Source: Bacillota bacterium
Lineage (GTDB): Bacteria > Bacillota > Sulfobacillia > JACIYH01
Assembly: GCA_014360055.1 (NCBI GenBank)
Contig: JACIYH010000006.1
Span: forward strand, 1 to 60,390
Direction: 5' to 3'
DNA length: 60,390 nt
Shown here: in pieces, positions 11,447 to 51,233 of the stretch
Numbering within the stretch: position 1 is the stretch's first letter
How the letters are laid out: each line of letters opens with the position of its first letter
Translations under genes and position numbers: made by a program
The notes under the pieces: generated by a model
What the model was told of the DNA's origin: nothing
The model's input: only the letters and a program-made list of their open reading frames with translations
Databases searched by the model: none

Positions 11447-12814
11447 TCAGAGGCGAGCCGGTAGCGCGACGCGCAGGACGGAGCGCAGGAGGCGCACGGC
11501 GTCGTCAGTACGGGAGAGGTGGATGGCCCGGGCTATCAGATTGGCCAGGATACCCGCCGCCTCCACACGTCCCACCAGGAGTGCGCCCACCGGGCGGTCG
11601 TCCTGGAAGGCGATCCTGCCGTAAACCGGCGTGAAGCCGGGCGCCCCGGGTTGCCCCGGAAACCGGCCCCACGGGACGGGGACGGCCGACACCCGCCCCC
11701 ACGCGCCCGATGTGGTCAGCACCCGGGCCGAGGGCCCGCTGGGGAAAACGTCCCCGACGGAGATGACCTGCAGGGGTCCGAGGTGCACGGCATTGACGCG
11801 CAAACCTCCGCGGTAATAACTGCGCAGGCCCGCCATGTTGCGCCCGGCGACACGCCCCTGGGCGACCGCCAGGGGCCAGAGGGGCAGCATGGCCTGCTTG
11901 CCCGTGGCCAGGTCCAGGGTTTGCGCCACGTCGCCAGCCGCCCACAAGTCCGGCACCGTGGTGGCCAGGGTGCCGTCGGTGATGACCCCCTCGCCCACAT
12001 CCGCTCCCGCCTGCCGGGCCAGGGCCAGATTGGGCCTCACCCCCACCGCCAGCACCACCAGCTGGCACGGGATGGCACCGCCCCCCGCACGGACTTTCAG
12101 ATCGTCCCCGCCCGACTCCAGTGCCTCCAGTTCGGTGTTGAGCATCACCCTGATGCCGCTGCGCTCCAGGTGGCCGGCGATCAAGGCCGACGCCTCCGGG
12201 TCGCAGGCACCGGGCAGGAGGGTGGGCATCTTCTCGATCAGGGTAACCCGCAGACCCCGCATGGCCAGGGCCCAGGCCACGTGGACGCCGATGAACCCGC
12301 CCCCCACCACCACCGCACCCCGGGCGCTCCCCGCCGCTCGAGCCAGCCGGCGGGCATCCTGCAGGGTGCGCAGGGCGAACACCCCCGCCGGCAGGGGGTG
12401 GCCGGCGCCACGCCCCCGCGTGCCGGCGGGGGTATCGGGTGCCGGCTCGCCGGAAGGGGGGCACAGGCCGGGGACCGGGGGAACCACGGGGCTGGCACCC
12501 GTGGCCAGGAGCAGGCGGTCGTAGGACAGTTCGCGGCCATCCTCAAGGAAGAGCCGTCGCGCCCCGCAGTCTAGGAAGCGGACCGCCACCCCCGCCATCA
12601 GGTCGATCCCGGCCTGCCGGATGGCGCTCTCCCCGGCGAGTTCGAGGGTCGCAGCATCGACCTTCCCCGCCACCAGGTCCGGCTCCCTCACCTTGGAGTA
12701 GTAGGCCCCCTCGTCCGCCGTCACCACGGTAACCGCATCCTCGGGCCGCGCGGCCCGGATGGTCAGGGCAGCCGTCATCCCGGCGGGGCCGTTGCCCACG
12801 ATAACGTGCTTCAT
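11447..12814 (-). CDS. FAD-dependent pyridine nucleotide-disulfide oxidoreductase family protein
   Basis: A 455-residue flavoprotein of the NADH oxidase/rubredoxin reductase/nitrite reductase-like group. It has an N-terminal FAD-binding GNGPAG loop (HVIVGNGPAGMTAAL), a second Rossmann motif for NAD(P)H (VVVGGGFIGVHVAWAL), LLLATGASP, and VPDLWAAGDVAQT for FAD. No CxxxxC redox disulfide is seen, so it is probably an NAD(P)H:acceptor reductase passing electrons to or from a ferredoxin, rubredoxin or small acceptor. The ATG start has GGGGAGG upstream. It is the last gene of the leftward operon, 76 bases after module protein B1, and is the most likely link of that system to NAD(P)H. An Ala/Gly-rich loop (residues about 120-145) is inserted before the NAD domain. 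Confidence 0.85.
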   Translation of the reverse strand: MKHVIVGNGPAGMTAALTIRAARPEDAVTVVTADEGAYYSKVREPDLVAGKVDAATLELAGESAIRQAGIDLMAGVAVRFLDCGARRLFLEDGRELSYDRLLLATGASPVVPPVPGLCPPSGEPAPDTPAGTRGRGAGHPLPAGVFALRTLQDARRLARAAGSARGAVVVGGGFIGVHVAWALAMRGLRVTLIEKMPTLLPGACDPEASALIAGHLERSGIRVMLNTELEALESGGDDLKVRAGGGAIPCQLVVLAVGVRPNLALARQAGADVGEGVITDGTLATTVPDLWAAGDVAQTLDLATGKQAMLPLWPLAVAQGRVAGRNMAGLRSYYRGGLRVNAVHLGPLQVISVGDVFPSGPSARVLTTSGAWGRVSAVPVPWGRFPGQPGAPGFTPVYGRIAFQDDRPVGALLVGRVEAAGILANLIARAIHLSRTDDAVRLLRSVLRVALPARL

Positions 12815-12890: not shown

Positions 12891-13541
12891 TCAGTACACG
12901 GGCCAGTCGGCCACCCAGAGCCCCAGGTTCCGCGCCAGCAGGTCCTGGGCCCGGTTCACGTTGAAGTTGCCGCAGGAGCAGCACCTACCCATGACCACGG
13001 CGGCATCGCGCAGCGAACGCCGTCCCAGCTTGCACTCGGCTATCAAGTGCTTCACCAGGCCCGATGCCACCATGGCGTGGCCGCACATGGTGGTGAACTC
13101 CAGGACCTCATATTCCGGCAGGAGTTCCAGCCGGCCGTGGCTCCCCAGGGAGAACTCCCGGGTGTGAATGCGCTTGAGCCCCGCCTGCCGCACGATGTCC
13201 TCCACCACGTCGTGCAGGCCGGAGATGACCACCGAAACCCCCAGGTCGGCCTCTTTCAACTCGCGGATGAGTTCCACCACGTCCTGCTTGTCGTCGTACG
13301 TCACTTCCAGGATGGTGGTGTTGGAAACCCGGGCGATGATCTCCTCCGGATCGATGTAGAGGAAGTTGCCCGTCTTCATGTCGCCGAAGTTGACCGGGTT
13401 GTGGCGCAGGCAGATGCGGAGGAACTCCTTCCCTTTTTCACCGAAGACGTCGTCGTTGAAACCCTTGGCCGAGCACGACAGCACCACGAAGTCCTTCTCC
13501 AGGCTCTCGCGGGAGCCGCGGCGGTGCAGGCTGTGGGTCAT
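12891..13541 (-). CDS. Unrecognised Cys/His-motif protein, module protein B (copy 1)
   Basis: A 216-residue soluble protein of no family I recognise. A paralogue of exactly the same length is encoded at 19641-20291. Shared features are the start MTHSLHRxGS, an AKGF segment, RHNPVNFGD...TGN near residues 46-59, SVVISGL near 103, EFSLGSHGR near 129, TMCGHAMV (Cys153, His155) and CSCGNFNVNRA (Cys188, Cys190). The invariant MCGH and CxCGxFN motifs look like a metal or iron-sulfur site. Its ATG overlaps the stop of module gene A (copy 1) by 4 bases (ATGA), so the two are translated as a pair. It sits downstream of a CooS-like gene in the putative sigma-54 operon. Function is unknown; a redox or metal-dependent role is inferred from context only. 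Confidence 0.75.
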   Translation of the reverse strand: MTHSLHRRGSRESLEKDFVVLSCSAKGFNDDVFGEKGKEFLRICLRHNPVNFGDMKTGNFLYIDPEEIIARVSNTTILEVTYDDKQDVVELIRELKEADLGVSVVISGLHDVVEDIVRQAGLKRIHTREFSLGSHGRLELLPEYEVLEFTTMCGHAMVASGLVKHLIAECKLGRRSLRDAAVVMGRCCSCGNFNVNRAQDLLARNLGLWVADWPVY

Positions 13542-14293
13542 GCCACATCCTCCTCCCCCGGCTCGCGGAAGCGCGGCCGGCCCATGCCCAGGTTGTTCTT
13601 ACTGTTGGGCAGCACGGTGTACCCCGCCTGCTCGATGATGGGGAGCACGGGCAAAGAACCGTCGGGATGCACCTTGCAGGAGACCTCCAGGGTGTAGACG
13701 GTGTCCAGTTGAGGGGCGATCTCCCGGAGCACGCGTAACACTTCGGCGAGCTTCTCCAGTGGTACGTCGAACTCGATGATGGCCGAGAGCGACTTCTCCT
13801 TCACCACGTCGGGCATGAGGTCGCCCGTGGTACGGTCGGCCATGAAGTGGGTCACCGGGTTACCCTCGCAGAAGCCGACCCCCAGTTTGGCCACGGCGCG
13901 GGTGACCTTCTGCACGTCCTCCCAGGAAGTGCTCACCCCGGGACGGCCCATCTCGATACCCACACCGGCGTACCCGAACCGGATGCGCCCCGTGATCTCA
14001 TTGGTCTTGATCTCCTCGGTGCCGCGCCCCGGCACGCCGGTGGCTTTGAACTCGATGAGGGGATCGGACAGGATGGCCCGGATCAGGCGGGGCATCTCCA
14101 GGGTTTCCTGGAACATGGCGTCGGTGGGACAGATGCCCGAGCGCAGGCATACGCCGCACTCCACGCAGCGGTCGGAGTCGATGATCAGGGTCACCCGCCC
14201 GTTGCCGGGTAGCCTGCCCAGGCTGCGGGCGTCCACCGGACAGAAGGGGATGCACCGGCCGCAGCCCACACACTTCTCGGCATCAACCTGCAC
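13538..14293 (-). CDS. Two-cluster ferredoxin fused to an unrecognised domain, module protein A (copy 1)
   Basis: 251 residues. Residues 1-60 carry two [4Fe-4S] motifs: Cys8, 11, 14, 18 (CVGCGRCIPFCP) with normal spacing, and Cys43, 46, 49, 55 (CVECGVCLRSGICP), which has five residues instead of three before the last Cys. The remaining 190 residues match no domain I recognise but are conserved in the paralogue at 20288-21106: GRGTEEIKTNEITGR, GVGIEMGRPG, LGVGF...NPVT, SLSAIIEF and a C-terminal PNSKNNLGMGRPR. It starts at GTG, 3 bases after the CooS-like stop, and overlaps protein B by 4 bases. Inferred to transfer electrons for the partner B protein. Confidence 0.78.
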   Translation of the reverse strand: MQVDAEKCVGCGRCIPFCPVDARSLGRLPGNGRVTLIIDSDRCVECGVCLRSGICPTDAMFQETLEMPRLIRAILSDPLIEFKATGVPGRGTEEIKTNEITGRIRFGYAGVGIEMGRPGVSTSWEDVQKVTRAVAKLGVGFCEGNPVTHFMADRTTGDLMPDVVKEKSLSAIIEFDVPLEKLAEVLRVLREIAPQLDTVYTLEVSCKVHPDGSLPVLPIIEQAGYTVLPNSKNNLGMGRPRFREPGEEDVA

Positions 14294-14296
14294 GGC

Positions 14297-15844
14297 CTAC
14301 GCCCCCTCCCCGTCCCGCAGAACCGCCGCCACCTGCTCGGGCCTGCGCACCTGGCCCGGCCCCATCAGCGCCTTGCCGCCCGTCTCCCGCAGCACCCGCC
14401 CGAAGAGGTCGCGGGCTTCGCGGGTGCCGTCCAGGGGCAGCACGGGACCCAGGTAGGTGGGGATGCCCCGGGCCGCCGAGGCCACCGCCGTGGCCCAGGC
14501 CGCCGGCCGCGATGCCTCCGGGAAGGAAGCCAGTACCGGGACACCCGCCCTGGCCAGGTCCGCCAGCAGGGCCAGGGTGTGCCCGTCAGACCAGCAGGAC
14601 CCCAGGTGCCAGACGGGCGGCAGTGCCAGGCCGGCAGTCTCCTTTGCGCGGCCCAGGAACTCGGCCAGGCCCCGGCCCACGGGGTGGTCGCGGCGATCGG
14701 GGTCGAGCAGGCCGGCGGACGCCAGGGCCGCCCCCGCGCACCCGGAGGCCAGCACCAGCACGTCCGCCGCCAGCAGGGCCCGCGCCTGGTCCAGGATGGG
14801 GCCCCGGTGGGTGGCTCTGGTGTTGTTGCAACCTCCCAGCCAGGCCACTCCCCGCAGGCCGGATGCGGTGGCAGCCCCGCCAGCGACCGCCGTCAGCAGG
14901 TCGCGGGCCACACCGCCCAGGCCCACCATGGCCTCAGGACCGTCGGGCCAGGGGCGGGTTGACCTCCCCGCCGCCCGCCGGAAGTGGCCCTCGGCCGCCC
15001 GCGCCACCTGTTCCACGTCTCCCGGGCTGCCGAACCGGGCACTGCCGAAGGTGGCCCCGCCGAACACCGCGCTCTCCGATGGGTTTCCGGCACCCAGGCG
15101 GAAGAAGGGGACACCGGCGGCCTGTGCCGCCTTCTCCAGGCCGGGGGCCACGCAGGCCTCGCCCGCCACCACGGCGTCCACCACGCCCGAGGCCACCAGC
15201 ACTTCCTGGGACCCGTAATCGCCCGCCACGGGGAAGCGCCCCTCACCCTCGGCTCCGCAGGCGCCGGCCACGTTCACCCCGGCCCCACGGCCCCCCGCGA
15301 AGGCCCCGGCAGCGGCAGCGCTGAACCGACCCACCAGCAGCACGTTGGCCTCGTCCCGGCCCAGGGCGGCCGGACCTGCCTTCGTGCGCACCGTGGCCCC
15401 ATCCGCAGGCACCAGGGCCAGGGCGGAGGCACCCGCCAGGGCGGCCCGCACCGCCGCCATGAGGGTATCCTCCGCAGAGCGGTCGCCCTCCCGGGCCACT
15501 TCCATTGCCTGCAGCACCGGGCCTGCGTCCGGGGTACCGCCCCCTGCAGCCGGCCAGGCGTGGGCCAGTTGGGAGGCAGCCCCCTCGGCCACCTGGCGGC
15601 AGAACTCGGCCGCCACCAGGGCGGTCCGCGTGCGCCCGCAGGTGGTGGTCTCCACCTGCCCGAAGGGGTCGATGCGGCACGGGCCCTGGCTGCACGCCCG
15701 GCAGCACAGCCCCATGGTCCCGAAGGCACAGTTGGGCACCTGTCCCTCGAACCTGTCCCAAACCGAAGGCCACGATCCTCCCCGTGCTTCCGCCATGAGC
15801 CGCTCGGTCAGAGCGTCAGCGGTCCTCTTGCGCAGCGTCCTCAC
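14297..15844 (-). CDS. CooS-like (Ni-Fe-S carbon monoxide dehydrogenase family) protein, shortened and lacking two catalytic residues
   Basis: 515 residues against roughly 620-680 for CooS. The N-terminus VWDRFEGQVPNC...GLCCRACSQGPCRIDPFG...TTC retains all six Cys of the B and D clusters (39, 47, 48, 51, 56, 69). All five C-cluster cysteines appear present: Cys196 (VAGACGAEG), Cys231 (GEACVAPG), Cys339 (LGGCNNTR), Cys369 (ASGCAG) and Cys417 (HLGSCWSD). By my manual comparison from memory, the ligand His of the canonical GHNP motif is replaced (VGRFS, Arg173) and the catalytic Lys of the SEKA motif is Ala. About 100 residues are missing between the N-terminal clusters and Cys196. It may therefore bind a C-like cluster but not be a normal CO dehydrogenase. 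The GTG start has GGAGG upstream. It overlaps the CooF-like gene by 29 bases. Confidence 0.82.
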   Translation of the reverse strand: MRTLRKRTADALTERLMAEARGGSWPSVWDRFEGQVPNCAFGTMGLCCRACSQGPCRIDPFGQVETTTCGRTRTALVAAEFCRQVAEGAASQLAHAWPAAGGGTPDAGPVLQAMEVAREGDRSAEDTLMAAVRAALAGASALALVPADGATVRTKAGPAALGRDEANVLLVGRFSAAAAGAFAGGRGAGVNVAGACGAEGEGRFPVAGDYGSQEVLVASGVVDAVVAGEACVAPGLEKAAQAAGVPFFRLGAGNPSESAVFGGATFGSARFGSPGDVEQVARAAEGHFRRAAGRSTRPWPDGPEAMVGLGGVARDLLTAVAGGAATASGLRGVAWLGGCNNTRATHRGPILDQARALLAADVLVLASGCAGAALASAGLLDPDRRDHPVGRGLAEFLGRAKETAGLALPPVWHLGSCWSDGHTLALLADLARAGVPVLASFPEASRPAAWATAVASAARGIPTYLGPVLPLDGTREARDLFGRVLRETGGKALMGPGQVRRPEQVAAVLRDGEGA

Positions 15845-16406
15845 CTGCGGTGCCTCCTTCCCATACCAGCGCCAGTGCTTTCACCAAAGCTCCCTGCCGC
15901 GTGCCCGCCACTTCCTGCCATGCCGGCCGCTCCCGGAACTGCAGGGCCCCCGTCGGGCAGGCATCCACGCAGAAGGGATACTCCATCTGGGTGCAGCGAT
16001 CGCACTTAAGAACCCGGCCTCCGTGTCCGGGCCTTACCGCCCCGAAGGGGCAGACCGCCACGCACATCAGGCAACCCATGCATTTGGCCTCATCGTATAG
16101 CACGGCACCTTCCGGCTCCGGCCTGTGCATGGCTCCGGTCGGGCAGGCGTCCAGGCAGGGGGCATCCAGGCAGTGCCGGCACTGCAGGGGGAACCCCGCC
16201 CCCGCCGGGTGGCCCGCTGCCCCGCCCAGGGCCTCGGGAATAGCCAGCGGCAACGGACTTCCCCGCACCGACACCCGGGGCCTGGGCACGGGTTCCTCCT
16301 CCAGTGCCCCCACCACGGTGCGGGAAGCCGAATCCCGGCCCAGCGCACACGCCACCTGGCAGGAACGGCAGGCCATGCAGCGGCCCGGATCAACCACGAT
16401 CTCCAA
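15816..16406 (-). CDS. CooF-like polyferredoxin (DMSO reductase HycB/CooF type iron-sulfur protein)
   Basis: An electron-transfer protein of 196 residues with four Cys motifs: CMACRSCQVAC, CRHCLDAPCLDACP, CMGCLMCVAVCP and CDRC...CVDACP, the pattern of 16-Cys, four-[4Fe-4S] subunits such as CooF, HycB and DmsB. The TTG at 16406 is chosen because it has AGGAGG nine bases upstream and gives the typical start MEIVVDPGRCMACRSC. An ATG at 16427 would place that ribosome binding site inside the gene. It immediately precedes the CooS-like gene, mirroring the cooF-cooS pairing, and probably wires that protein to other redox partners. Confidence 0.88.
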   Translation of the reverse strand: MEIVVDPGRCMACRSCQVACALGRDSASRTVVGALEEEPVPRPRVSVRGSPLPLAIPEALGGAAGHPAGAGFPLQCRHCLDAPCLDACPTGAMHRPEPEGAVLYDEAKCMGCLMCVAVCPFGAVRPGHGGRVLKCDRCTQMEYPFCVDACPTGALQFRERPAWQEVAGTRQGALVKALALVWEGGTAGEDAAQEDR

Positions 16407-16535
16407 ACTCGCCCACCTCCTCGTCATACCTGCTCGTCTTACCCCTCGTCCTGCGCAACCTCCCGCGCGCCGACCCACGCGGACCGCGGAGGCACCCGCC
16501 TCGAGAGCGGACCGCCGCCCAGGGGGAACCCGCTG

Positions 16536-18059
16536 TCATCCCTGGCCCTCTGCGGGCTGCCGGGAAGGGGAACGGCGCCGGCGCAAGAGCCCGCCGATGG
16601 CGGGAGCGCTCAGGAACAGCGCCGTGGCGATCAGGAGGCCAAGGGCAATGGGCCGGGTGAAGAAGATGGCCACCGACCCTTTGGAGAGCATGAAGGACTG
16701 TCTCATGGCCGTCTCCAGGTCCGGCCCCAGCACCAGGCCCAGCACCACCGGGGGCACGGGGATCTTCAACTTGTGCATGAAGTACCCCAGCACCCCCGCC
16801 CCCAGGGCCAACCAGATGTCGAAGACGCTGTTGTCGATGCAGTAGGCCCCCACGATGCTGATCACGGAAACGATGGCCATGAGCACCGGGGCCGGGATGC
16901 TCAGGATGCGGATCATGGGAGGGATGGCCAGGGTGTTCACCGCCAGCAGCAGGAAGTTGGCCACGTACATGCTGGCGATAAGGCCCCACACGAACTCGGG
17001 CGCGTCCCGGAACAGCAACGGCCCCGGCCGCAGGCCCCACAGCATGAGGCCGCCCATGAGCACGGCCGTGGTGGCCGAACCCGGTATCCCCAGGGACAGC
17101 AGGGGCACGTAGGCGGCGATGGCGGCGGCGTTGTTGGCCGATTCGGGGGCCGCCACCCCCTCGATGGCCCCCTTCCCGAACAGGTGCGCGCGCCGGGACG
17201 ACTGCCGCTCTATGGTGTAGGACAGGAAGGAAGCCGTGGTGGCGCCCGCCCCCGGCATCAGCCCCACGAAGAACCCGATGATGGTTCCCCGCACGATGGC
17301 CCACTTCGACACCGCCCACTCCTGCACGGAGGGCAGGATGGCCCGCAGCCCCAGGTTGGCCTTCATCACCTTCCATTGCGCCCGGCTCTCCAGCCAGAGC
17401 AGCACCTGGGTGATCCCGAATATGCCGATCACGACCGGCAGGAAGGGGATGCCGTCCATGAGGTCGATGACCCCCATGGTGAAGCGGGGACGCCCCGAGA
17501 CGCTGTCCACCCCGATCACGGCCAGAAAGAGTCCCAGAAGGGCCGAGAGCAGGCCCTTGGCGGCCGACTCTCCCGTCAGCCAGCCCAGACTGGTGAGGGC
17601 AAGGAGCATGAGGGCGGCCGTCTCCGGAGGACCGAAGCGCAGGCCGAAGCGGGCCAGCGGCGGAGCGAAGAGGGTGAGCATCAGGATGCCGAACGTCCCC
17701 GCGATGAAGGAGCCCACCGCCGCCATGAAGAGGGCCTGCCCGCCCCGTCCCTGCAGGGCGAGGCGGTGCCCGTCCAGCCCGGTCATGATGGCCGCCGAAT
17801 CCCCGGGGATGTCGATGAGCACGGCGCTCACCGTGCCCCCGTACATGCAGCCGTAATAGATGCCGGTGAGCATGATGATGGCGGACTCGGGGTCCATGCC
17901 GAAGGTGAGGGGGAGGAGCAGCGCCACCCCCGATACCGAACCGATGCCGGGGAGGGCACCGATGACCTGCCCCGCCACCACGCCGATGACGCAGAAGAGG
18001 AGGTGCTGGGGCTGGAACACGGAGAGAAAACCCTGCCACAGGTAGGACCAGGTGTCCAT
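16536..18059 (-). CDS. tctA: Tripartite tricarboxylate transporter, large permease TctA
   Basis: A 507-residue membrane protein with about 11-12 hydrophobic segments and family blocks GALPGIGSVSGVALLLPLTF, YYGCMYGGTVSAVLIDIPGDSAA and GLMPGAGATTASFLSY, the two duplicated Pro-Gly motifs of TctA. With TctB and TctC it forms an ion-coupled, binding-protein-dependent importer of carboxylates such as citrate or other di- and tricarboxylic acids. Substrate cannot be fixed from sequence. It lies 12 bases after tctB. Finding the importer in the middle of this redox operon implies that the pathway acts on an imported organic acid. Confidence 0.93.
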   Translation of the reverse strand: MDTWSYLWQGFLSVFQPQHLLFCVIGVVAGQVIGALPGIGSVSGVALLLPLTFGMDPESAIIMLTGIYYGCMYGGTVSAVLIDIPGDSAAIMTGLDGHRLALQGRGGQALFMAAVGSFIAGTFGILMLTLFAPPLARFGLRFGPPETAALMLLALTSLGWLTGESAAKGLLSALLGLFLAVIGVDSVSGRPRFTMGVIDLMDGIPFLPVVIGIFGITQVLLWLESRAQWKVMKANLGLRAILPSVQEWAVSKWAIVRGTIIGFFVGLMPGAGATTASFLSYTIERQSSRRAHLFGKGAIEGVAAPESANNAAAIAAYVPLLSLGIPGSATTAVLMGGLMLWGLRPGPLLFRDAPEFVWGLIASMYVANFLLLAVNTLAIPPMIRILSIPAPVLMAIVSVISIVGAYCIDNSVFDIWLALGAGVLGYFMHKLKIPVPPVVLGLVLGPDLETAMRQSFMLSKGSVAIFFTRPIALGLLIATALFLSAPAIGGLLRRRRSPSRQPAEGQG

Positions 18060-18071
18060 GGGCTCGCCCCC

Positions 18072-18515
18072 TCAGAGCGGCAGGATGCCGGTGGGGAACG
18101 GCACCCGCAGCCACAGCACGAAGATAAGATACACCGCCAGCACCGTGCCCGCCGCCAGAGCCACCACCCGGGGCCAGGCGTACCGGCCCACCAGGCGCAG
18201 CCAGACCAGAGTGTAGAGGCCCACGGTGACCAGCATCCCCAGCCAGCTGACGAGCCAGATGGTGACGGCGAAGGCCAGAGCCCCCGCCCCTACCGCCCGC
18301 AGCCCGCTCCGGCTCCAGTCGGGCTTCTCCCCGACCGTCCTGCCCCCCACCACCAGGAGGACGGCCACGGGTTGCAGCAGCAACCCCAGCACCACCGGGA
18401 AGAACCCGGGACCCGGCCCGCTCAGATGCACCCAGTATCCAAACCCCCGGCCCTGCCAGATGAGGAGCAGCCCTCCCACCGAAGCGGCCACACCCAGCAC
18501 AGAATCAACACTCAT
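18072..18515 (-). CDS. tctB: Tripartite tricarboxylate transporter, small permease TctB
   Basis: A 147-residue protein with four membrane segments (residues about 5-20, 38-57, 78-103, 115-140). It contains GPGPGFFPVVLGLLLQPVAVLLV, the typical GPxxFP segment of TctB. Small TctB subunits are poorly conserved, so position between tctC and tctA is the strongest evidence. It begins at an ATG 72 bases after tctC. Confidence 0.88.
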   Translation of the reverse strand: MSVDSVLGVAASVGGLLLIWQGRGFGYWVHLSGPGPGFFPVVLGLLLQPVAVLLVVGGRTVGEKPDWSRSGLRAVGAGALAFAVTIWLVSWLGMLVTVGLYTLVWLRLVGRYAWPRVVALAAGTVLAVYLIFVLWLRVPFPTGILPL

Positions 18516-18587
18516 GGCATTCTGCCTCCATAAGGGGGAGGTGGGCCCGGCGCGGGACCCCGCGCCCCGCGCCGGGCGTGCCGCAGC

Positions 18588-19571
18588 TTACTTGATCAAC
18601 CCCAGGGCTTTGAGCAACTCGGTGGTGAGTTGATCGACCTCCTTCATGTAGGCAGCGAATTCCTCCGGTCCCTGGTAGGCGGAGGTGAGGGCGTTCTTCT
18701 CGATATAGCGCGTCTGCCAGTCCTGGGACTCCGACAGCTTCTTGAAGGCCTCCGCCAGGACCTTGACCGCCTCCTGGGGCATTTCGGGCGGTCCCACGAT
18801 GCCGCGGAACTGCTCGAAGACCACGTTGTAGCCCTTCTCCTTCAGGGTGGGCGCATCGGGCCACTTCTTGAGGCGCTGCGGGGCAGCCACCGCGATCACC
18901 TTGGCCAGACCCCCGTCCACCTGAGAGACGCACTCGTTGGGATTGGCCCAGGCGGCGTCGATGTGCCCGCCCAGCAGGGCCTTCATCACCTCGCCACCGG
19001 AGTCAAAGGGGATGTAGTTGAACTTGACACCCGAAGCCTGCTCAAGCATCACGGTGACCATCTGGTCTTCCTGGCCGACCGCGGTACCGCCGATGGAGAC
19101 CGCCTTCTCACCCTGCTTGGCCGCCTCCATCAACTGCTCGATGGTCTGGTACTTGGAATCGATCTTGACCACGATGCACTCTTCGTCGAGAGCCAGCCGG
19201 GCAATGGGGGTGAACACCGAGGCCGGCACCGCTCCCGGCACCGTCTTGGGGCCGGAAACCTGCCCGGTTATGAACGTGAGTATGACGTAGGGATCGCCCT
19301 TCTTGGTGTTCACGTAGCTCATGCCCACCTGGCCACCCGCCCCCGGCTTGTTGACCACGTTGATGGGCTGGGGCAGGATCTTCTCCTTCTGGATGATGTC
19401 GGCGATGTGGCGACCCAGCACGTCGCTGCCGCCGCCGGGCGCATACGGTACCACCAGTTCGATGGGCTTCTCGGGGTACGCAGCCTTCTTCTGGCCCGTA
19501 CAACCTGCGGCGAGGGCGGAGAGCAGCATCGCCGCCACCAGGCCGAACACCAGCACTCTCGACCGATGCAC
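18588..19571 (-). CDS. tctC: Tripartite tricarboxylate transporter substrate-binding lipoprotein TctC (Bug family)
   Basis: 327 residues, exported, with a lipoprotein signal (LLSALAAGCTGQ, lipid-attached Cys at about 24). The mature start KPIELVVPYAPGGGSDVLGR and NKPGAGGQVGMSYV are the Bug-family loops that hold the substrate carboxylate through main-chain groups and waters. GQEDQMVTVMLEQASGVKFNYIPFDSGGE and GHIDAAWANPNE are also typical. Most Bug proteins bind small carboxylates; the ligand here is unknown. It starts at a GTG 69 bases after module protein B2. Confidence 0.93.
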   Translation of the reverse strand: MHRSRVLVFGLVAAMLLSALAAGCTGQKKAAYPEKPIELVVPYAPGGGSDVLGRHIADIIQKEKILPQPINVVNKPGAGGQVGMSYVNTKKGDPYVILTFITGQVSGPKTVPGAVPASVFTPIARLALDEECIVVKIDSKYQTIEQLMEAAKQGEKAVSIGGTAVGQEDQMVTVMLEQASGVKFNYIPFDSGGEVMKALLGGHIDAAWANPNECVSQVDGGLAKVIAVAAPQRLKKWPDAPTLKEKGYNVVFEQFRGIVGPPEMPQEAVKVLAEAFKKLSESQDWQTRYIEKNALTSAYQGPEEFAAYMKEVDQLTTELLKALGLIK

Positions 19572-19640: not shown

Positions 19641-20291
19641 TTACCGGGTGATCCCACCCCCTCCCGTCTGCCGGCGGGCCAGGGCGGATATCAGTGCTGC
19701 CGCCCGGCGCGGGTTGAACACCCCGCAGTGGCAGTTGGCGGCCATGGTGGCCGCCGCCCGGTCGGGGTCCAGGCGCCCGGCGGCGACTTCCCCGGCCAGA
19801 TGCGAAATCAGGCGGTAAGAAACCATGCCGTGCCCGCACATGGTGTGGATGCCCATCACCAGCGGGTCGGAGGGCAGGCCCTCAACCCGACCGTGGACCC
19901 CCAGGGAGTACTCGATGGTATGGGGCTCCAGGCCCGCCTCACGCACGCACGGGTGCACGCGTTCGAACAGCCCGGAGACCACCACCGACATGCCCGTGTC
20001 AAGCTCCCGCAGTTCGCGGAGCACCCGTGCCACCGTGTCCGGGTCGGTGAACACACCGTGGATCACGGAATTGTCGCCCGTGCCTTCCAGGATCTCCTCC
20101 CGGCGGCGGGAGAACGCGTTACCCGTGCGCCCGTCCCCCCAGTTCACGGGATGGTGACGCAGGATCACCTCCAGGCATCGCCGGAGGGCCGGGGCCGCCC
20201 CCTCACGGGTGAACCCTTTGGCGCCCATCACCAGCACCACGTAGTCGCCGGCGAGGTCATGGGATCCCTGCCTGTGCAGCGTGTGGGTCAC
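19641..20291 (-). CDS. Unrecognised Cys/His-motif protein, module protein B (copy 2)
   Basis: 216 residues, the same length as copy 1 at 12891-13541, and clearly homologous by eye: MTHTLHRQGS, VMGAKGFT, RHHPVNWGDGRTGN, SVVVSGL, IEYSLGVHGR, TMCGHGMV (Cys152, His154) and CHCGVFNPRRA (Cys187, Cys189). The Cys and His of TMCGH and the two Cys of CxCG are kept in both copies, whereas Cys187 of copy 1 has no counterpart. The GTG start at 20291, with GGAGG upstream, overlaps the stop of module gene A (copy 2) by 4 bases, the same linkage as in copy 1. It precedes tctC. Function is unknown. Confidence 0.76.
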   Translation of the reverse strand: MTHTLHRQGSHDLAGDYVVLVMGAKGFTREGAAPALRRCLEVILRHHPVNWGDGRTGNAFSRRREEILEGTGDNSVIHGVFTDPDTVARVLRELRELDTGMSVVVSGLFERVHPCVREAGLEPHTIEYSLGVHGRVEGLPSDPLVMGIHTMCGHGMVSYRLISHLAGEVAAGRLDPDRAAATMAANCHCGVFNPRRAAALISALARRQTGGGGITR

Positions 20292-21106
20292 CGCGTCCCC
20301 TCCTCTCCCCCGACCGGGCCAGTTCCCGTCCCCCGGCCCGCGGCGGCACCGCCCGCCCCGCCTCCGGTCCCGCTTCCCGCCCCACCGGGACCGCCGGCCC
20401 ACGCTGCGCGCCGGTGCCCGAGGCCCACGTTGGTCTTGCCGTTGGGCCGCACCGGGAACCCCGCCTCGCGGCACAGGCGGGCCACTTCTTCTGCGTGGCG
20501 CCCGGGGTCGGGCACGATAACATCCAGGCTGAAGACGGTCTCGATGAGAGCACCTGCTTCACGCACTGCGGCCAGCACCTGGGGCAACCGGTCCTGGGGG
20601 ACGGTGAACTCGATGATGGCCGAGAGGGCGCGCTCGCCCAGGACGTCCGGGCGCAGATGCCCGGCTCCGTCCACCATGAGCTGGGTGACCGGATTGTCGG
20701 GCTCGAACCCGACACCCAGGGCGGCAAGTCGGGTAGCCATCACCTCCACATCCCGGAAGGAAGTGCCCATCCCGGGGCGGCCCAGTTCGATCCCCACCCC
20801 CACCTGACCGGGTCGAAAGCGACCGGTGACGTCGTTGGTCTTCATCTCCTCGGTGCCGCGACCCAGCACCCCGGTACCGGGGTGGGCCAGCAGGGGGTCA
20901 GAAAACAGGGCCCGTACCAGCCGGGGCCAGGTGAGCCAGTGCAATTCCAGCGCGTCCACCGGGCAGATTCCCGAGCGATGGCAGATGGCACATTCCACAC
21001 AGCGATCCTGATCGATCACCGCCACATCTCCGACGGTGATGGCGCCCACCGGGCAATAGGGCTGGCACAGCCCGCACCCCGTACAGAGGTCATCTCTCAC
21101 CAGCAT
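20288..21106 (-). CDS. Two-cluster ferredoxin fused to an unrecognised domain, module protein A (copy 2)
   Basis: 272 residues. It has two [4Fe-4S] motifs with Cys8, 11, 14, 18 and Cys36, 39, 42, 48; the second again has the unusual CX2CX2CX5CP spacing (CVECAICHRSGICP), as in copy 1. The unrecognised domain repeats the copy 1 landmarks: GRGTEEMKTNDVTGR, GVGIELGRPGMGTS, LGVGFEPDNPVT, ALSAIIEF and PNGKTNVGLGHRR. A 45-residue Gly/Ala-rich tail follows the conserved end. It starts at ATG 21106, overlapping the PorG-like gene by 17 bases. Position directly behind the oxidoreductase genes suggests that it exchanges electrons with them. Confidence 0.78.
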   Translation of the reverse strand: MLVRDDLCTGCGLCQPYCPVGAITVGDVAVIDQDRCVECAICHRSGICPVDALELHWLTWPRLVRALFSDPLLAHPGTGVLGRGTEEMKTNDVTGRFRPGQVGVGIELGRPGMGTSFRDVEVMATRLAALGVGFEPDNPVTQLMVDGAGHLRPDVLGERALSAIIEFTVPQDRLPQVLAAVREAGALIETVFSLDVIVPDPGRHAEEVARLCREAGFPVRPNGKTNVGLGHRRAAWAGGPGGAGSGTGGGAGGAAAGRGTGTGPVGGEEGTR

Positions 21107-21488
21107 CCCGCCCGTCTCCCCCTTCCACCAGATCCAGCACCGCGGGCACGATCTGCCTCACCCAGTCCGGCAGGGCCACTCCCGCCACGGGGACGACTTC
21201 GGGAGAGATACCCCCCGCAGGACCTTCTCCGGCCAGGTGGGCCGCCCACCCCGTCAGGGCACCGTCCAGGCAGAAGACGCGCCGGGGTCGAGGACGCTGC
21301 CGCCCCCGCTCCCGCACATAGCACCGGCCCACGCGCACCGCCACCCAGCGGGGCGCACCCGGTCGCAGGTTGCCGAAGGAGGGCTGCACCTGCACCATCA
21401 TCCCCCGGTCGAGGAACGCCCGCCCCAGTGCCAGCCCCAGCTCGAGCAGGGGTTGCTCCGCCCACCCGCACAGCAGGACCTCGCTCAC
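21090..21488 (-). CDS. Short, degenerate gamma-subunit-like protein of 2-oxoacid:ferredoxin oxidoreductase
   Basis: 132 residues. Its position after the beta subunit and its pattern LLELGLALGRAFLDRGMMVQVQPSFGNLRPGAPRWVAVRVG resemble the PorG/KorC gamma domain, but the N-terminal GxGGQG loop reads CGWAEQPLLELG and the protein is much shorter than the usual 170-190 residues. It is therefore probably a divergent or degenerate gamma subunit. The GTG start at 21488 has only a weak G-rich ribosome binding site. It lies 23 bases after porB and overlaps module gene A2 by 17 bases. I am sure that it is a gene in this operon, less sure of the family. Confidence 0.6.
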   Translation of the reverse strand: MSEVLLCGWAEQPLLELGLALGRAFLDRGMMVQVQPSFGNLRPGAPRWVAVRVGRCYVRERGRQRPRPRRVFCLDGALTGWAAHLAGEGPAGGISPEVVPVAGVALPDWVRQIVPAVLDLVEGGDGRDAGER

Positions 21489-21511
21489 GCCCCGGTCGTC
21501 CCCCACCGCCG

Positions 21512-22285
21512 TCACCGCCTCCCACCACGGCGTACGCGGCCATCCTCGGCTTCCCAGAGGGGCCATACCCCCTCCTCCACCGCCCGGCGCGCCATCTCCA
21601 CCGTCCGGGATGGCTCGCACCCCTGGGCCAGGGGACAGGGTGCCAGCACCTGCACGTAGCGGAAGCCGCTCAGGGACGCCGCCCGACGCAGCTTGCGGGC
21701 GAAGTCTGCCGGATAGGCGATACTGGCGGTAGCGACGTAGGGCACCCCGTGGGCCAGCATGATCCGGGGAAGATCTTTCTTGGCCGTGGCCTTCCCGGCC
21801 GGGGTGGTGGTGGTACGGACACCCGGTCGGGTGAGGCCGCTGGCCTGGCCGCCCGTGTTCATGCACGCCTCGTTGTCATAGCAGACGTGGAGCACATCGT
21901 CGCCCCGGGCGGCCGCCCCCGAGAGGGCTTGCAGGCCGATGTCGCCGCTGCCGGCATCCCCGGCCCACGAGATCACCGTCACCCCGCGCTTTCCCCGCGC
22001 CGCCAGGCCGGCGGCAATCCCGGCCGCCGCCGCGGCCGCGCAGGGAAACAGGGTGTGGTAGAACGGCACCCGCCAGGCGGTGACGTCGTCCCAGCCCCCG
22101 ATGCTGGCCACACACGAGGCGGGCACCACCACGATCACCCGCTGCCCCAGCGCCAGCAGGGCCTGGCGCAGGGCGATGGTGGCACCGCAGCCCGGGCAGG
22201 CCCGGTGCCCGGGCGAAAACCCCTCCACCGCTACCGGGGGCATCAACTCCCGCAGATCCGCCCCCGGGTCAGCCCGCCGCGACAA
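21512..22285 (-). CDS. porB: Pyruvate/2-oxoacid:ferredoxin oxidoreductase beta subunit
   Basis: A 257-residue thiamine-diphosphate-binding subunit. GHRACPGCGATIALRQ near the N-terminus supplies cluster-ligand cysteines. The ThDP motif is GDAGSGDIGLQALSGAAARGDDVLHVCYDNEACMNTGGQ, closely matching PorB of pyruvate-type enzymes. It decarboxylates a 2-oxoacid to an acyl-CoA with reduction of ferredoxin, or the reverse. The TTG start at 22285 has GGAGGGG upstream and overlaps the porA stop by 17 bases. Confidence 0.93.
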   Translation of the reverse strand: MSRRADPGADLRELMPPVAVEGFSPGHRACPGCGATIALRQALLALGQRVIVVVPASCVASIGGWDDVTAWRVPFYHTLFPCAAAAAAGIAAGLAARGKRGVTVISWAGDAGSGDIGLQALSGAAARGDDVLHVCYDNEACMNTGGQASGLTRPGVRTTTTPAGKATAKKDLPRIMLAHGVPYVATASIAYPADFARKLRRAASLSGFRYVQVLAPCPLAQGCEPSRTVEMARRAVEEGVWPLWEAEDGRVRRGGRR

Positions 22286-23456
22286 ACCAGTCCCCTCCCG
22301 CCGCCTCGGCCGTGAGGTCCGAGGCCGACACCGTTACCTGCACCAGGTCCTCCACCGTGATGTCCCCGCCTCCCAGCCCGGCCACTACTCCCACCACGCG
22401 CGGCTGGGCCGCAGAAGGCATCTCGGCCACCGCCGCCCTTACCTGGCGGGCCAGGAACCCTCCCTGGCCGGGGATGAGATTGCGGTCCACCACCACCAGT
22501 TCCCGGGCGGGCGCCGCAGCCCGCCGGAAGGCCGCCCGGGGGAAGGGCACGGGGCAGCGTATCTTGATCATCCCCACCGCCAGCCCGCTCTCCCGCAGGG
22601 AATCCACCGCGATGCGGGCCGTGCTGGCCGGGGCACCCATCACCACCAGCAGGGTGGAGGCGTCGCCGGTACGGTACTCCTCGAGCAGTCCGTTCCAGGT
22701 GCGCCCGAAGGCCTCGGCGAACTCGGCCGCCACCTGCATGATGACACCCTCCGCCGCCGCCATGGCGGCGTGCTGCGCCTGGCGGTAGCGCTGGTACCAG
22801 GCGGGCGACGCCACCGTGTTCACCGCCCGGGGGTGGTCGGGATCCAGGACCGGCCGGGGGCGGTGGTGAAGGAAGTCCCGCACCGCGGCCGGTTCGGGCG
22901 CCTGCACCGGCTCGGCCGTGTGGCTGATCACGTACGCCTCGTAGTTCACCATAACCGGAAGCTGCACGCGGGGGTCCTCGGCCACCCGGAAGGCCTGGAT
23001 TACGGTATCAAGCACCTCCTGGGCGCTCTCGCAGTGGAACTGGATCCAGCCCGCCGCCTCCTGCCCCAGGGCATCTCCCTGGTCGGCGAAGCGGGAGTGG
23101 GGCGCGGACATGGCCCGATTGACTACGGCCATCACGATGGGCAGGCGCAGGCCGGAGGCGTGGTAGAGCAACTCGCTCATGTAGGCCAGACCCTGGGAAT
23201 TGGTGGCCGTGAACACCCTCGCCCCCGTCAGGCTGGCGCCCACGGCAGCGGCCAGGGCACTGTGGTCCGACTCCACTGCCAGGAGGCGCGCCTCCAGGCG
23301 TCCCCCTGCGATCATGGCCGCCAGGTGCTCCATCACGGGGGAGGCGGGCGTGATGGGGTAGGCCGGGATCACCTCGACCCCGCACAGGCAGGCACCCTCG
23401 GCCGCAGCCCGGTTTCCGTCCATCAGCGAGAACAGAGGCCGACCCTCCCCCAGCAC
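22269..23456 (-). CDS. porA: Pyruvate/2-oxoacid:ferredoxin oxidoreductase alpha subunit
   Basis: 395 residues. AEGACLCGVEVIPAYPITPASPVMEHLA carries the Thr of the YPITP loop that contacts the substrate in pyruvate enzymes. AVESDHSALAAAVGASLTGARVFTATNSQGL and RLPIVMAVVNRAMSAP are core PorA blocks. The YPITP Thr favours a pyruvate or simple 2-oxoacid substrate over oxalate. GTG start at 23456; an ATG 11 codons downstream is an alternative. It overlaps the delta subunit gene by 34 bases. Confidence 0.93.
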   Translation of the reverse strand: MLGEGRPLFSLMDGNRAAAEGACLCGVEVIPAYPITPASPVMEHLAAMIAGGRLEARLLAVESDHSALAAAVGASLTGARVFTATNSQGLAYMSELLYHASGLRLPIVMAVVNRAMSAPHSRFADQGDALGQEAAGWIQFHCESAQEVLDTVIQAFRVAEDPRVQLPVMVNYEAYVISHTAEPVQAPEPAAVRDFLHHRPRPVLDPDHPRAVNTVASPAWYQRYRQAQHAAMAAAEGVIMQVAAEFAEAFGRTWNGLLEEYRTGDASTLLVVMGAPASTARIAVDSLRESGLAVGMIKIRCPVPFPRAAFRRAAAPARELVVVDRNLIPGQGGFLARQVRAAVAEMPSAAQPRVVGVVAGLGGGDITVEDLVQVTVSASDLTAEAAGGDWFVAAG

Positions 23457-23788
23457 TCCCCCTCACCCGTGCACCGGTCACCCTCCCCGCCTCTGGCCCC
23501 GCCCGCCGCGGCCGCCCGCCCCCGCCCGGGCCCGGCCATGTCCGGCTGGAAGGCCTGGCGGGGGCACTCGCGCACACAGATGCCGCAGCCCTTGCACCAC
23601 TCCACTACCACCCGGACCGGGGGTCCCGGCTCGACGGCCCCGTGGGGGCAGAAGTAATAGCACACGAGACAGCCGTCGCACCGTTCTTCCCGCAGTCGGG
23701 GAGGGGGAAACCGCACCGGCTCCCTGGCCGCCAGGGCGGCACTTCCCGGCCGGTCGGAGCCGGGAGTGGGAAGCAACACCTGCCTCAC
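23423..23788 (-). CDS. porD: 2-oxoacid:ferredoxin oxidoreductase delta (ferredoxin) subunit
   Basis: A 121-residue ferredoxin-type subunit with two [4Fe-4S] motifs, CDGCLVCYYFCPHGAV and CKGCGICVRECPRQAF, which pass electrons from the alpha/beta core to ferredoxin. It is the first gene of the leftward operon. The GTG at 23788 is the best start (AAGGACAGGGG upstream), but it lies only about 9 bases from the transcription start predicted from the sigma-54 promoter. The message would then be nearly leaderless, or translation begins further in, for example at the GTG before RFPPPRLREERC. The Gly/Ala-rich C-terminus runs into porA. Confidence 0.85.
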   Translation of the reverse strand: MRQVLLPTPGSDRPGSAALAAREPVRFPPPRLREERCDGCLVCYYFCPHGAVEPGPPVRVVVEWCKGCGICVRECPRQAFQPDMAGPGRGRAAAAGGARGGEGDRCTGEGECWGRVGLCSR

Positions 23789-23808
23789 CCCCTGTCCTTC
23801 GCGAGGAC

Positions 23809-23823
23809 GCAAGCGGCGTGCCA
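23809..23823 (-). promoter_or_regulatory. Sigma-54 (-24/-12) promoter of the leftward por/tct/CooS-like operon
   Basis: On the minus strand the bases read TGGCACG-CCGC-TTGC, an exact match to the sigma-54 consensus TGGCACG-N4-TTGC. Transcription would start near 23797, just upstream of porD. A sigma-54 activator gene is divergent at 23969, and a perfect palindrome lies 64-84 bases upstream, the usual enhancer distance. Confidence 0.88.
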
Positions 23824-23886
23824 CAGCAGCACGTCCCTCTGAAACGGCTTGATGTCGCGCTTTCTGGCCGGCGGGCTTTCCCCGGC

Positions 23887-23907
23887 CCTGAAACAATCTG
23901 TTTCAGG
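23887..23907. promoter_or_regulatory. Palindrome, probable enhancer (activator-binding) site
   Basis: CCTGAAAC (23887-23894), a 5-base centre, and GTTTCAGG (23900-23907) form a perfect 8-bp inverted repeat. A further CTGAAAC half-site occurs at 23839-23845, 49 bases away. The location between the divergent activator gene and the sigma-54 promoter suits binding of the activator at 23969-25915. Confidence 0.65.
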
Positions 23908-23968
23908 CACCGGGAGCGTTCCGGGAGGAAACAGACGCGGAACAGCGAAGGTGGTGGGGGGAGGGGAA

Positions 23969-25915
23969 ATGGTGCGGGAGATCGTGTGCATTGCCCCCTA
24001 TCGGGAACTGGCCCACCTGGTGGAACGCGTGGCAGCAGAACTGGCCATGGAAGTGGATGTGATGGTGGGCCGCATGGAGACAGGGGTTGAGATGGCACTC
24101 GCCTGCCAGGCCGAGGGGGCGGAAGTGCTGGTGAGCCGGGGAGCCACCACCTGGTGGATACGCCACGCCGCCATCTCCCTGCCCGTGGTGGACATAACCA
24201 TCACGGGCTACGACCTGCTCGACGCGTATTACCGCGCGCGCGAACTGGGGCATCCCATCGGCATCACCGACCTGCCCGAAGTGCTGCGCGGAGCCGAGAG
24301 CCTGGAAGAAATCGTGGGGGAGAAGTTCATCAAAGTCCCTCTCCCCGACTACGACCAGATCGAACGGGGTATCGCCGCTCTCAAGGCGGCCGGCGCCCGG
24401 GTGGTGATCGGCAAAATCGTCATGGCCAGCCTGGCCGAGCGGTACGGCATGCGCGGGGTGACCATCAACTCCGGCCGGGAGGCGGTGGCGGTGGCTCTGG
24501 AGGAAGCCTCCCGCGTACTGCAGGTACGCAAGATGGAGCGTCAGCGGGCGGAGCAGGTCAAGGCCATCCTCGACTTTGCCTACGAGGGCATCGTGGCCGT
24601 GGATGCGAGCGGGAGGGTGGCCGTGTTCAATCCGGTGGCCGAACGCATCATGCAGGTGCGGGCGCGGGACGTCATCGGCCGTCCCGCCGCCGAGGTGATC
24701 CCCAACACCCGTCTGCCCCAGGTCCTGGCCAGCGGAAAGCCCGAACTGGGGGAGATCCAGGATTTGGGGCGGACCCGTATCGTCACCAACCGGGTCCCCA
24801 TCCTGGTCAACGGCCGCATCGCCGGGGTGGTGGCCACCTTCCAGGAAGTGGGCAGCATCCAGCGCCTGGAGCAGAACATCCGGCGGAAGCTGGCCGCCCG
24901 CGGGCATGTGGCCCGCTGGACCTTCGCCGATATCCAGGGCGAGAGCCCGTCCATAAAGCACGCCATCCGCCAGGCCCGCCGCTTCGCCCAGGTGGATTCC
25001 ACCGTGCTCATCACGGCGGAGACGGGCACCGGCAAAGAAATGTTCGCCCAGGCCATCCACCTGGATAGTCCCCGGCGCGACGGACCCTTCGTGGCCGACA
25101 ACTGCGCCGCCCTGGCGGAAGAACTGCTGGAAAGCGAGCTATTCGGCTACGCGGAGGGCGCCTTCACGGGGGCCCGCCGGGGCGGCAAGCCGGGCCTCTT
25201 CGAACTGGCCCACGGGGGCACCATCTTTCTGGATGAAATTGCGGAAATGTCGGAGCGCCTGCAGGCCAAGGTGTTGCGCGTCCTCGAGCAGCACGAGGTG
25301 GCCCGGCTGGGGGACGACAAGGTCATCCCCGTGGACGTGCGGGTCATCGCCGCCACCAACCGCAACCTGGCCGACCTGGTCAGACAGGGACGCTTCCGCG
25401 ACGATCTCTATTACCGCCTCAACGTGCTGCGCCTGAGCATTCCGCCCCTGCGCGAGCGCAAGCAGGACATACCCATTCTGGCCCGTACCATCCTCCGGGA
25501 ACTTCACCAGCGCTACGGCCGGGGTCCCGTGGACTTCTCCCCGGAGGCCCTCACCCTCCTGGGGGCGTGGGACTGGCCCGGTAACGTGCGGGAACTGCGC
25601 AACCTGGTGGAACGGCTGGCCATCCTCACGGACGGGCCCACCCTGGAACGGGATGCCGTGGCCGCCGCCCTCGACTGGCCCCGCGACCACCCCTGCCCCG
25701 CTGCCCCGCCCGAACCAGGACCCGTCCCCTGTCCCGTCCAGCCGGCCGCGGGCGTGCGGAGCAGCCACGGGCGGAGGGGGGCCCTGGCGGAACTGGAAGA
25801 CGAGGCCATCAGGCAGGCCCTGATCCAGACCGGGGGGAACAAAACGCAGGCAGCCGCCCTGCTCGGCATAGGCCGCACCACCCTCTGGCGGCGCCTGCGC
25901 GCCGGTCGCCCCTAA
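23969..25915 (+). CDS. Sigma-54-dependent transcriptional activator with PrpR-type N-terminal sensor
   Basis: 648 residues. Residues 1-175 resemble the PrpR_N sensor domain of propionate-catabolism activators (MVGRMETGVEMALACQAEG, EVLVSRGATTWWIR). A PAS domain spans about 190-300 (ILDFAYEGIVAVDASGRVAVFNPVAERI). The AAA+ domain from about 320 has Walker A ETGTGKE, the sigma-54-contacting GAFTGA loop, Walker B GGTIFLDEIAEM and the arginine-finger region. A Fis-type HTH (GNKTQAAALLGIGRTTLWRRL) ends the protein. ATG 23969 follows GGGGGGAGGGG; the upstream extension of the frame crosses the palindrome and is rejected. It almost certainly activates the divergent operon in response to a small organic acid or its CoA derivative; the ligand is unknown. 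Confidence 0.93.
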   Translation: MVREIVCIAPYRELAHLVERVAAELAMEVDVMVGRMETGVEMALACQAEGAEVLVSRGATTWWIRHAAISLPVVDITITGYDLLDAYYRARELGHPIGITDLPEVLRGAESLEEIVGEKFIKVPLPDYDQIERGIAALKAAGARVVIGKIVMASLAERYGMRGVTINSGREAVAVALEEASRVLQVRKMERQRAEQVKAILDFAYEGIVAVDASGRVAVFNPVAERIMQVRARDVIGRPAAEVIPNTRLPQVLASGKPELGEIQDLGRTRIVTNRVPILVNGRIAGVVATFQEVGSIQRLEQNIRRKLAARGHVARWTFADIQGESPSIKHAIRQARRFAQVDSTVLITAETGTGKEMFAQAIHLDSPRRDGPFVADNCAALAEELLESELFGYAEGAFTGARRGGKPGLFELAHGGTIFLDEIAEMSERLQAKVLRVLEQHEVARLGDDKVIPVDVRVIAATNRNLADLVRQGRFRDDLYYRLNVLRLSIPPLRERKQDIPILARTILRELHQRYGRGPVDFSPEALTLLGAWDWPGNVRELRNLVERLAILTDGPTLERDAVAAALDWPRDHPCPAAPPEPGPVPCPVQPAAGVRSSHGRRGALAELEDEAIRQALIQTGGNKTQAAALLGIGRTTLWRRLRAGRP

Positions 25916-51126: not shown

Positions 51127-51218
51127 TGCGTCCCTCCTCCCTTCCGCCCTCCGGTACCGGGATGCCGCTCGCATCCCCGCCGGGGTCTGCTGGGATCCTC
51201 TCTTAACCCGGCACAGGT

Positions 51219-51233
51219 GCAAATCTCGTGCCA
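51219..51233 (-). promoter_or_regulatory. Sigma-54 (-24/-12) promoter of the symporter operon
   Basis: The minus strand reads TGGCACG-AGAT-TTGC, an exact match to the sigma-54 consensus. Predicted transcription start is near 51207. It lies in the 379-base divergent region 51127-51505 between the symporter and its probable activator; the rest of that region shows only the palindrome at 51353 and GC-rich sequence. Confidence 0.87.

Follow-up and report, generated by a model that had tools for sequence, protein, structure and literature searches.

Carbon monoxide dehydrogenase (CODH) and the hybrid cluster protein (HCP) are textbook examples of one fold that holds different metal clusters. Departures from the Ni-CODH site have been described: ligands are lost in homologues of structural groups A-4 and A-6 and of clades C, D and G (PMC6344411), and altered or small homologues include CooS-V (PMC9311411) and mini-CooS (PMC8776680). 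In CooS-V, the residues at the places of CODH-II residues 261 and 295 (His259 and Glu295) hold the exo iron of the reduced cluster (PMC9311411). The HCP ligands His193, Glu217 and Glu434 (M. marburgensis numbering) correspond to the places of CODH-II His261, Cys295 and His561 (PMC10502027).

Here we describe CooS', a short CODH homologue encoded in a window of 60,390 nucleotides (the whole stretch of DNA analysed) from a Bacillota bacterium of the class Sulfobacillia. It shares with CooS-type Ni-CODHs (CODH-II, clades B-F; TIGR01702) the predicted fold, the D- and B-cluster cysteines, four of the five C-cluster cysteines and a CooF neighbour, but it lacks some 100 residues following the N-terminal clusters, has lost His261, Cys295, His93 and Lys563, and lies in a cassette with two partner proteins, A and B. 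The mini-CooS of Thermosinus carboxydivorans (WP_007288589; grouped with clade G) is likewise small, divergent and bacterial; its description sets it apart, as a complete metal-cluster motif is reported (PMC8776680), which CooS' does not have. With CooS-V (structural group D-1, a CODH homologue with an Fe/S/O cluster), CooS' shares the CODH scaffold, altered C-site ligands and the expectation of no CO activity; CooS-V, however, is full length and keeps His259 and Glu295 for the exo iron, whereas CooS' has neither ligand. In groups A-4 and A-6 (PMC6344411), as in CooS', the C-cluster His, Cys1 and the catalytic Lys are all replaced, yet these are Cdh-type proteins with E and F clusters, while CooS' is a short CooS in an FNOR/A-B operon. 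CooS-CooF-FNOR modules have the same CooF and NAD(P)-linked flavoprotein neighbours; the CooS' cassette adds A and B, and often a transporter and a sigma-54 activator, appears to have no competent C site, and in four members retains the B-cluster cysteines only. Our literature search, mostly of papers outside subscription, returned no description of this cassette or of a CooS reduced to its B cluster.

The CooS' gene and its predicted fold

The cassette consists of five genes:

15816-16478, minus strand: CooF-like multi-[4Fe-4S] ferredoxin (domain match, Fer4_11), overlapping the start of CooS'
14297-15844, minus strand: CooS', the protein under study, CODH-fold, 515 residues, start codon GTG
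13538-14293, minus strand: partner A (A2), with two [4Fe-4S] ferredoxin motifs and a conserved unnamed domain
12891-13541, minus strand: partner B (B2), matching no Pfam or NCBIfam model; invariant Cys153, Cys188 and Cys190
11447-12814, minus strand: FNOR, an FAD/NAD(P)-dependent pyridine nucleotide-disulphide oxidoreductase, PadH-like

A sequence-only reading of this DNA had proposed the CooS-like open reading frame without giving its strand; the frame is real and lies on the minus strand. Both a CooF-like ferredoxin and an FAD/NAD(P) oxidoreductase stand beside the gene, as in CooS-CooF-FNOR modules, and we recognised none of the cassette genes as a CooC-type nickel-insertion gene.

CooS' scored 118.8 bits against Pfam PF03063 (Prismane/CO dehydrogenase superfamily), above the gathering score of 27, and 166 bits against the CODH equivalog TIGR01702, far under the curated cut-off of 478. 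Its closest solved relatives were CODH-II structures (E about 1e-45). An AlphaFold model built from 40 aligned sequences had a mean pLDDT of 82.9 and a pTM of 0.88, with a few weak loops (among them 42-44 and 253-261, pLDDT < 50). Compared by VIA-align, 505 residues of the model aligned with CODH-II across residues 4-631 (Z 36.1, rmsd 2.5 A), and Z was lower for CooS-V, at 33.2, and for class III HCP, at 25.7. As modelled, CooS' is a CODH-fold protein, and the aligned span confirms the earlier estimate that some 100 residues have gone after the N-terminal clusters. Partner B, by comparison, gave a shallow model (pLDDT 65) for which Foldseek returned no match with E < 0.001.

Cluster cysteines and active-site residues

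We mapped the residues of CooS' by alignment to CODH-II and to canonical CooS, which assigned the following places:

15638-15730, minus strand: D-cluster Cys39 and Cys47, and B-cluster Cys48, Cys51, Cys56 and Cys69
15326-15328, minus strand: codon of Arg173, at the place of the C-cluster ligand His261
15248-15259, minus strand: Cys196-Gly197-x-Glu199 motif, invariant in the window-type relatives described below
14594-15154, minus strand: segment with Cys231, Cys339, Cys369 and Cys417 (CODH-II Cys333, Cys446, Cys476 and Cys526)
14501-14509, minus strand: Arg446-Pro447-Ala448 (CODH-II 561-563; Lys563 lost)

CooS' has 12 cysteines in all (39, 47, 48, 51, 56, 69, 82, 196, 231, 339, 369 and 417), and the eleven positions listed in the sequence-only reading proved exact when checked in the protein. 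All six B- and D-cluster cysteines aligned and are invariant in the complete window-type members. The loss of the catalytic His and Lys, also claimed earlier, was upheld by the alignment, in which CODH-II His261 corresponds to Arg173 and Lys563 to Ala448; the acid-base residue His93 corresponds to Gln92. The claim that every cluster cysteine is kept was wrong by one. CooS' keeps four of the six C-cluster ligands (His261, Cys295, Cys333, Cys446, Cys476 and Cys526): some alignments put Gly197 at the place of ligand Cys295 and others leave a gap there, and Cys196 corresponds to the non-ligand Cys294. We rejected Cys196 as the counterpart of Cys295 on the basis of the strand register (GVNVAGAC-G against GINVVGIC-C), which would put it at Cys294; the PDB entry of the C295D variant (GICDTG) confirms which CODH-II cysteine is 295.

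With His261 and Cys295 replaced, CooS' lacks both exo-iron ligands, and with His93 and Lys563 gone there would be no proton relay for CO/CO2. The four cysteines left at the C site would be enough for an ordinary cubane. Judging from the sequence, CooS' cannot form a normal C cluster with its acid-base site.

Two types of cassette, their descent and their surroundings

A scan of 154 genomes of the class recovered window-type CooS' in four: the genome of the window, G002 (83% identity to the window protein), G030 (Candidatus Acetocimmeria pyornia, 36%) and G016 (Firmicutes UBA3570, 35%). Searching outward from partner B added two genomes of that class (G015 and G029) and two from other parts of the phylum (G405 and G237). 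Family scans contributed G538 and G536, the latter with a fragment at a contig end, which brought the number of CooS' genomes to ten. In all ten, CooS' lies in a cassette with A, B and FNOR. The order is CooF-CooS'-A-B-FNOR in the window, G002, G016, G030, G405, G237 and G538, and CooF-CooS'-FNOR-A-B in G015 and G029; G536 shows CooS'-A-B-FNOR on a contig that ends inside cooS'.

The CooS' proteins fall into two types. The window type (n=6: the window, G002, G030, G016, G538 and, in part, G536) keeps the D, B and four C-site cysteines, with the G536 fragment ending short of D and B. The B-cluster-only type (n=4: G015, G029, G405 and G237) has lost every D- and C-cluster cysteine and kept the four of the B cluster; one such protein no longer matches any Pfam family. 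The B-cluster cysteines show no change in any of the nine complete proteins. Looking for a displaced Lys or His gave neither: all ten proteins have another residue in place of Lys563, and the nine complete cassette proteins, which are the ones that cover His261, have no His at its place.

All complete window-type members have lost His261, Cys295 and Lys563, and most have lost His93. Their invariant residues include Cys196-Gly-x-Glu199, Cys231, Cys339, Cys369, Cys417 and Trp418. The five complete proteins are mostly 31-41% identical to each other and share 81 invariant positions, among them 11 of the 12 cysteines of the window protein (hypergeometric P about 8e-9, a rough value, as the counts ignore relatedness). 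The invariance of the four C-site cysteines and of the CG(A/G)E motif makes it probable that the C site binds a cluster of some kind.

The ten B proteins encoded beside CooS' group as one clade (89/86) in a tree of 78, and the two halves of this clade (100/100 and 100/93) match the two CooS' types exactly. The CooS' proteins occupy one side of a branch against CooS (99/98) on very long branches, which leave the internal order of their tree unsure. Taken together, the single B clade and the position of CooS' on one side of that branch indicate that the cassette probably formed once. An archaeal short CooS (L083:7639-9282, Thermoproteota archaeon JAADEY010000036.1; 547 residues), which has no equivalents of His261 and Lys563, was rejected as a family member, as it falls outside the cassette group in the tree, and its ligand loss is therefore possibly independent. 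It lies beside a CooF-like gene in an operon of the membrane [NiFe]-hydrogenase/complex-I-like kind, with NuoH, a fused NuoC-D carrying both CxxC motifs, and NuoB.

Between the window and G002, dN/dS was 0.21 for CooS', 0.19 for CooF, 0.31 for FNOR, 0.08 for A2 and 0.09 for B2. CooS' is constrained, which argues that it is not a pseudogene, and it is less constrained than A and B; identity across the families is about 36% for CooS' and 62-66% for A2 and B2. Two cysteines of B2, Cys23 and Cys187, are present in six of six window-type B proteins and in none of the 72 others, and Cys142 of A2 is restricted in like manner. As the six window-type B proteins form one clade, the gain of Cys23 and Cys187 may have been a single event.

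Upstream, the operon of the window carries genes for a transporter, a second A/B pair and a 2-oxoacid:ferredoxin oxidoreductase, and is preceded by candidate regulatory elements:

16536-19571, minus strand: TctA, TctB and TctC tripartite tricarboxylate-type transporter genes, named from sequence
19641-21106, minus strand: second A/B pair, without CooS' (B1 19641-20291, A1 20288-21106)
21090-23896, minus strand: 2-oxoacid:ferredoxin oxidoreductase genes PorD (Fer4), PorA, PorB and, at the low end, a probable gamma gene (assigned by eye)
23808-23823, minus strand: sigma-54-type -24/-12 site TGGCACGCCGCTTGCG, one mismatch, ahead of the operon
23887-23907, no strand assigned: perfect 9-bp inverted repeat CCTGAAACA-ATC-TGTTTCAGG, candidate activator site
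23849-25915, plus strand: divergent sigma-54 activator, named by its sequence and by the corresponding genes of G002 and G016; start probably near 23969

The -24/-12-like site and the inverted repeat both lie between the divergent activator and the CooS' operon. The number of sigma-54-type promoter matches across the whole window is within chance, and similar sites precede operons at three other loci (L139, L140 and L197). A perfect -24/-12 consensus match occurs elsewhere in the window (51218-51233, minus strand). Tct transporter genes adjoin the cassettes of G002, G237 and G538 as well, and a lactate-racemase-family (LarA) gene lies near the cassette of G015 (L162:4434-5711). The host genome has a separate canonical CooS within a CODH/ACS cluster, and, at a contig end, an incomplete third CooS whose HGH motif is intact (L025:7929-8993, G000:C134).

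A/B pairs constitute a large unannotated redox family, with up to 8 copies per genome (window 19641-21106; L163-L167, L195-L246). Pairs without CooS' are common, and many of these loci lie beside Tct or other uptake systems, amidohydrolases or peptidases (several names were assigned by eye). No clearly fused A-B frame was found among the phylum-wide B matches, and searches for plasmid relatives of A and B returned none. Together, A and B may resemble the 6-hydroxynicotinate reductase of Eubacterium barkeri.

Proposed role and alternative explanations

Our reading, which we hold with moderate confidence, is that CooS' belongs to an A-B oxidoreductase linked to NAD(P)H or ferredoxin, in which it would act not as a CODH but as an electron-relay and scaffold subunit. 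This reading starts from what is directly supported: the predicted fold, the residues lost, a cassette that is conserved, its link with a single A/B clade and the B-cluster-only subgroup. For the type of cluster, the complex, the direction of electron flow and the A-B substrate, we infer the following. A former CO dehydrogenase subunit would have been kept as a non-catalytic relay and scaffold in a complex with CooF, A, B and FNOR. The window type would still have its D and B clusters, and the old C site would most likely hold an ordinary cubane on Cys231, Cys339, Cys369 and Cys417. Electrons would run between the FNOR flavin, the CooF-like ferredoxin, the clusters of CooS' and the ferredoxin domain of A, and the relay would end in an A-B redox reaction on a small carboxylate or heterocycle imported by the co-encoded transporter. 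Four cassette relatives have no cluster cysteines but those of the B cluster, so whatever the family does in common should not depend on C-site chemistry. A relay and scaffold is thus the most economical reading: beyond a B cluster and the shell of the fold, the shared role would require nothing but CooF, FNOR, A and B alongside. A-B itself would have no general need of this relay, given how common A/B pairs without CooS' are. Against the proposed relay stands the invariance of five C-site cysteines and Glu199 at 31-41% identity, which is more than a pure scaffold needs.

That invariance, together with that of Trp418, is what would be explained by a modified Fe-S (possibly Ni) cluster that uses Cys196 or Glu199 as replacement ligands and has its own redox chemistry, distinct from CO/CO2 conversion; for the window type this is an unlikely but serious contender. 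CooS-V, with its Fe/S/O cluster and slow hydroxylamine reduction (PMC9311411), offers a precedent, although it retains His259 and Glu295 where CooS' has lost both exo-iron ligands. The extra Cys23 and Cys187 of B co-occur with the window type and point to a possible specialised redox site in this subgroup; sister cassettes, however, do without the C site altogether. The sequence-only reading had suggested a modified cluster with non-CO chemistry: its denial of a normal CO site stands, but as the shared function it fails on the B-cluster-only relatives, and such chemistry is possible within the window-type subgroup only. We would similarly rate as improbable the bolder version, in which the window-type C site (four cysteines plus Cys-Gly-Ala/Gly-Glu) and the extra cysteines of B form the redox core of an undescribed oxidoreductase, a site with which the sister cassettes have dispensed.

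The remaining explanations appear far weaker. The PF03063 match and the CooF and FNOR neighbours, which are typical of CO-to-NAD(P) modules (PMC8776680), would fit a CO dehydrogenase that still works through a rearranged active site, in the CooS-CooF-FNOR setting already known; this is extremely improbable, given the replacement of His261, Cys295, His93 and Lys563 in the window protein, the loss of the Lys throughout the family, the TIGR01702 score and the separate canonical CooS of the host. The related fold of HCP could point to a hybrid-cluster-type protein for NO or hydroxylamine detoxification, but the places of the HCP ligands are taken by Arg173, Gly197 and Arg446, and an operon with transporter and Por genes looks catabolic, which makes this very unlikely. 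It is just as hard to credit that cooS' is a decaying gene of little or no function: its fast evolution, very long branches and stepwise loss of ligands are what decay might produce, yet its dN/dS, the invariant B-cluster cysteines and the place of cooS' between CooF and A or FNOR, kept in every genome found, speak for a maintained protein.

Under the relay and scaffold reading, the cooS' gene is an old metalloenzyme gene stripped down, kept by selection and reused as a probable electron wire in a five-gene redox cassette. The lineage appears to add a further outcome to those of CODH and HCP, in which the catalytic cluster is dismantled stepwise and the protein is retained in a fixed operon. 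Short CooS matches beside CooF and FNOR should accordingly not be taken as evidence of CO metabolism. A/B emerges as an unannotated redox pair, multi-copy in several genomes of the phylum and set beside small-acid transporters at many of the loci read. The intact enzyme, the form without exo-iron ligands and the B-cluster-only form make up a natural series for asking which parts of CODH electron transfer alone needs, and if the window-type C site does hold a new type of cluster, the family would preserve a record of how a CO dehydrogenase was turned, step by step, into a subunit for electron transfer.
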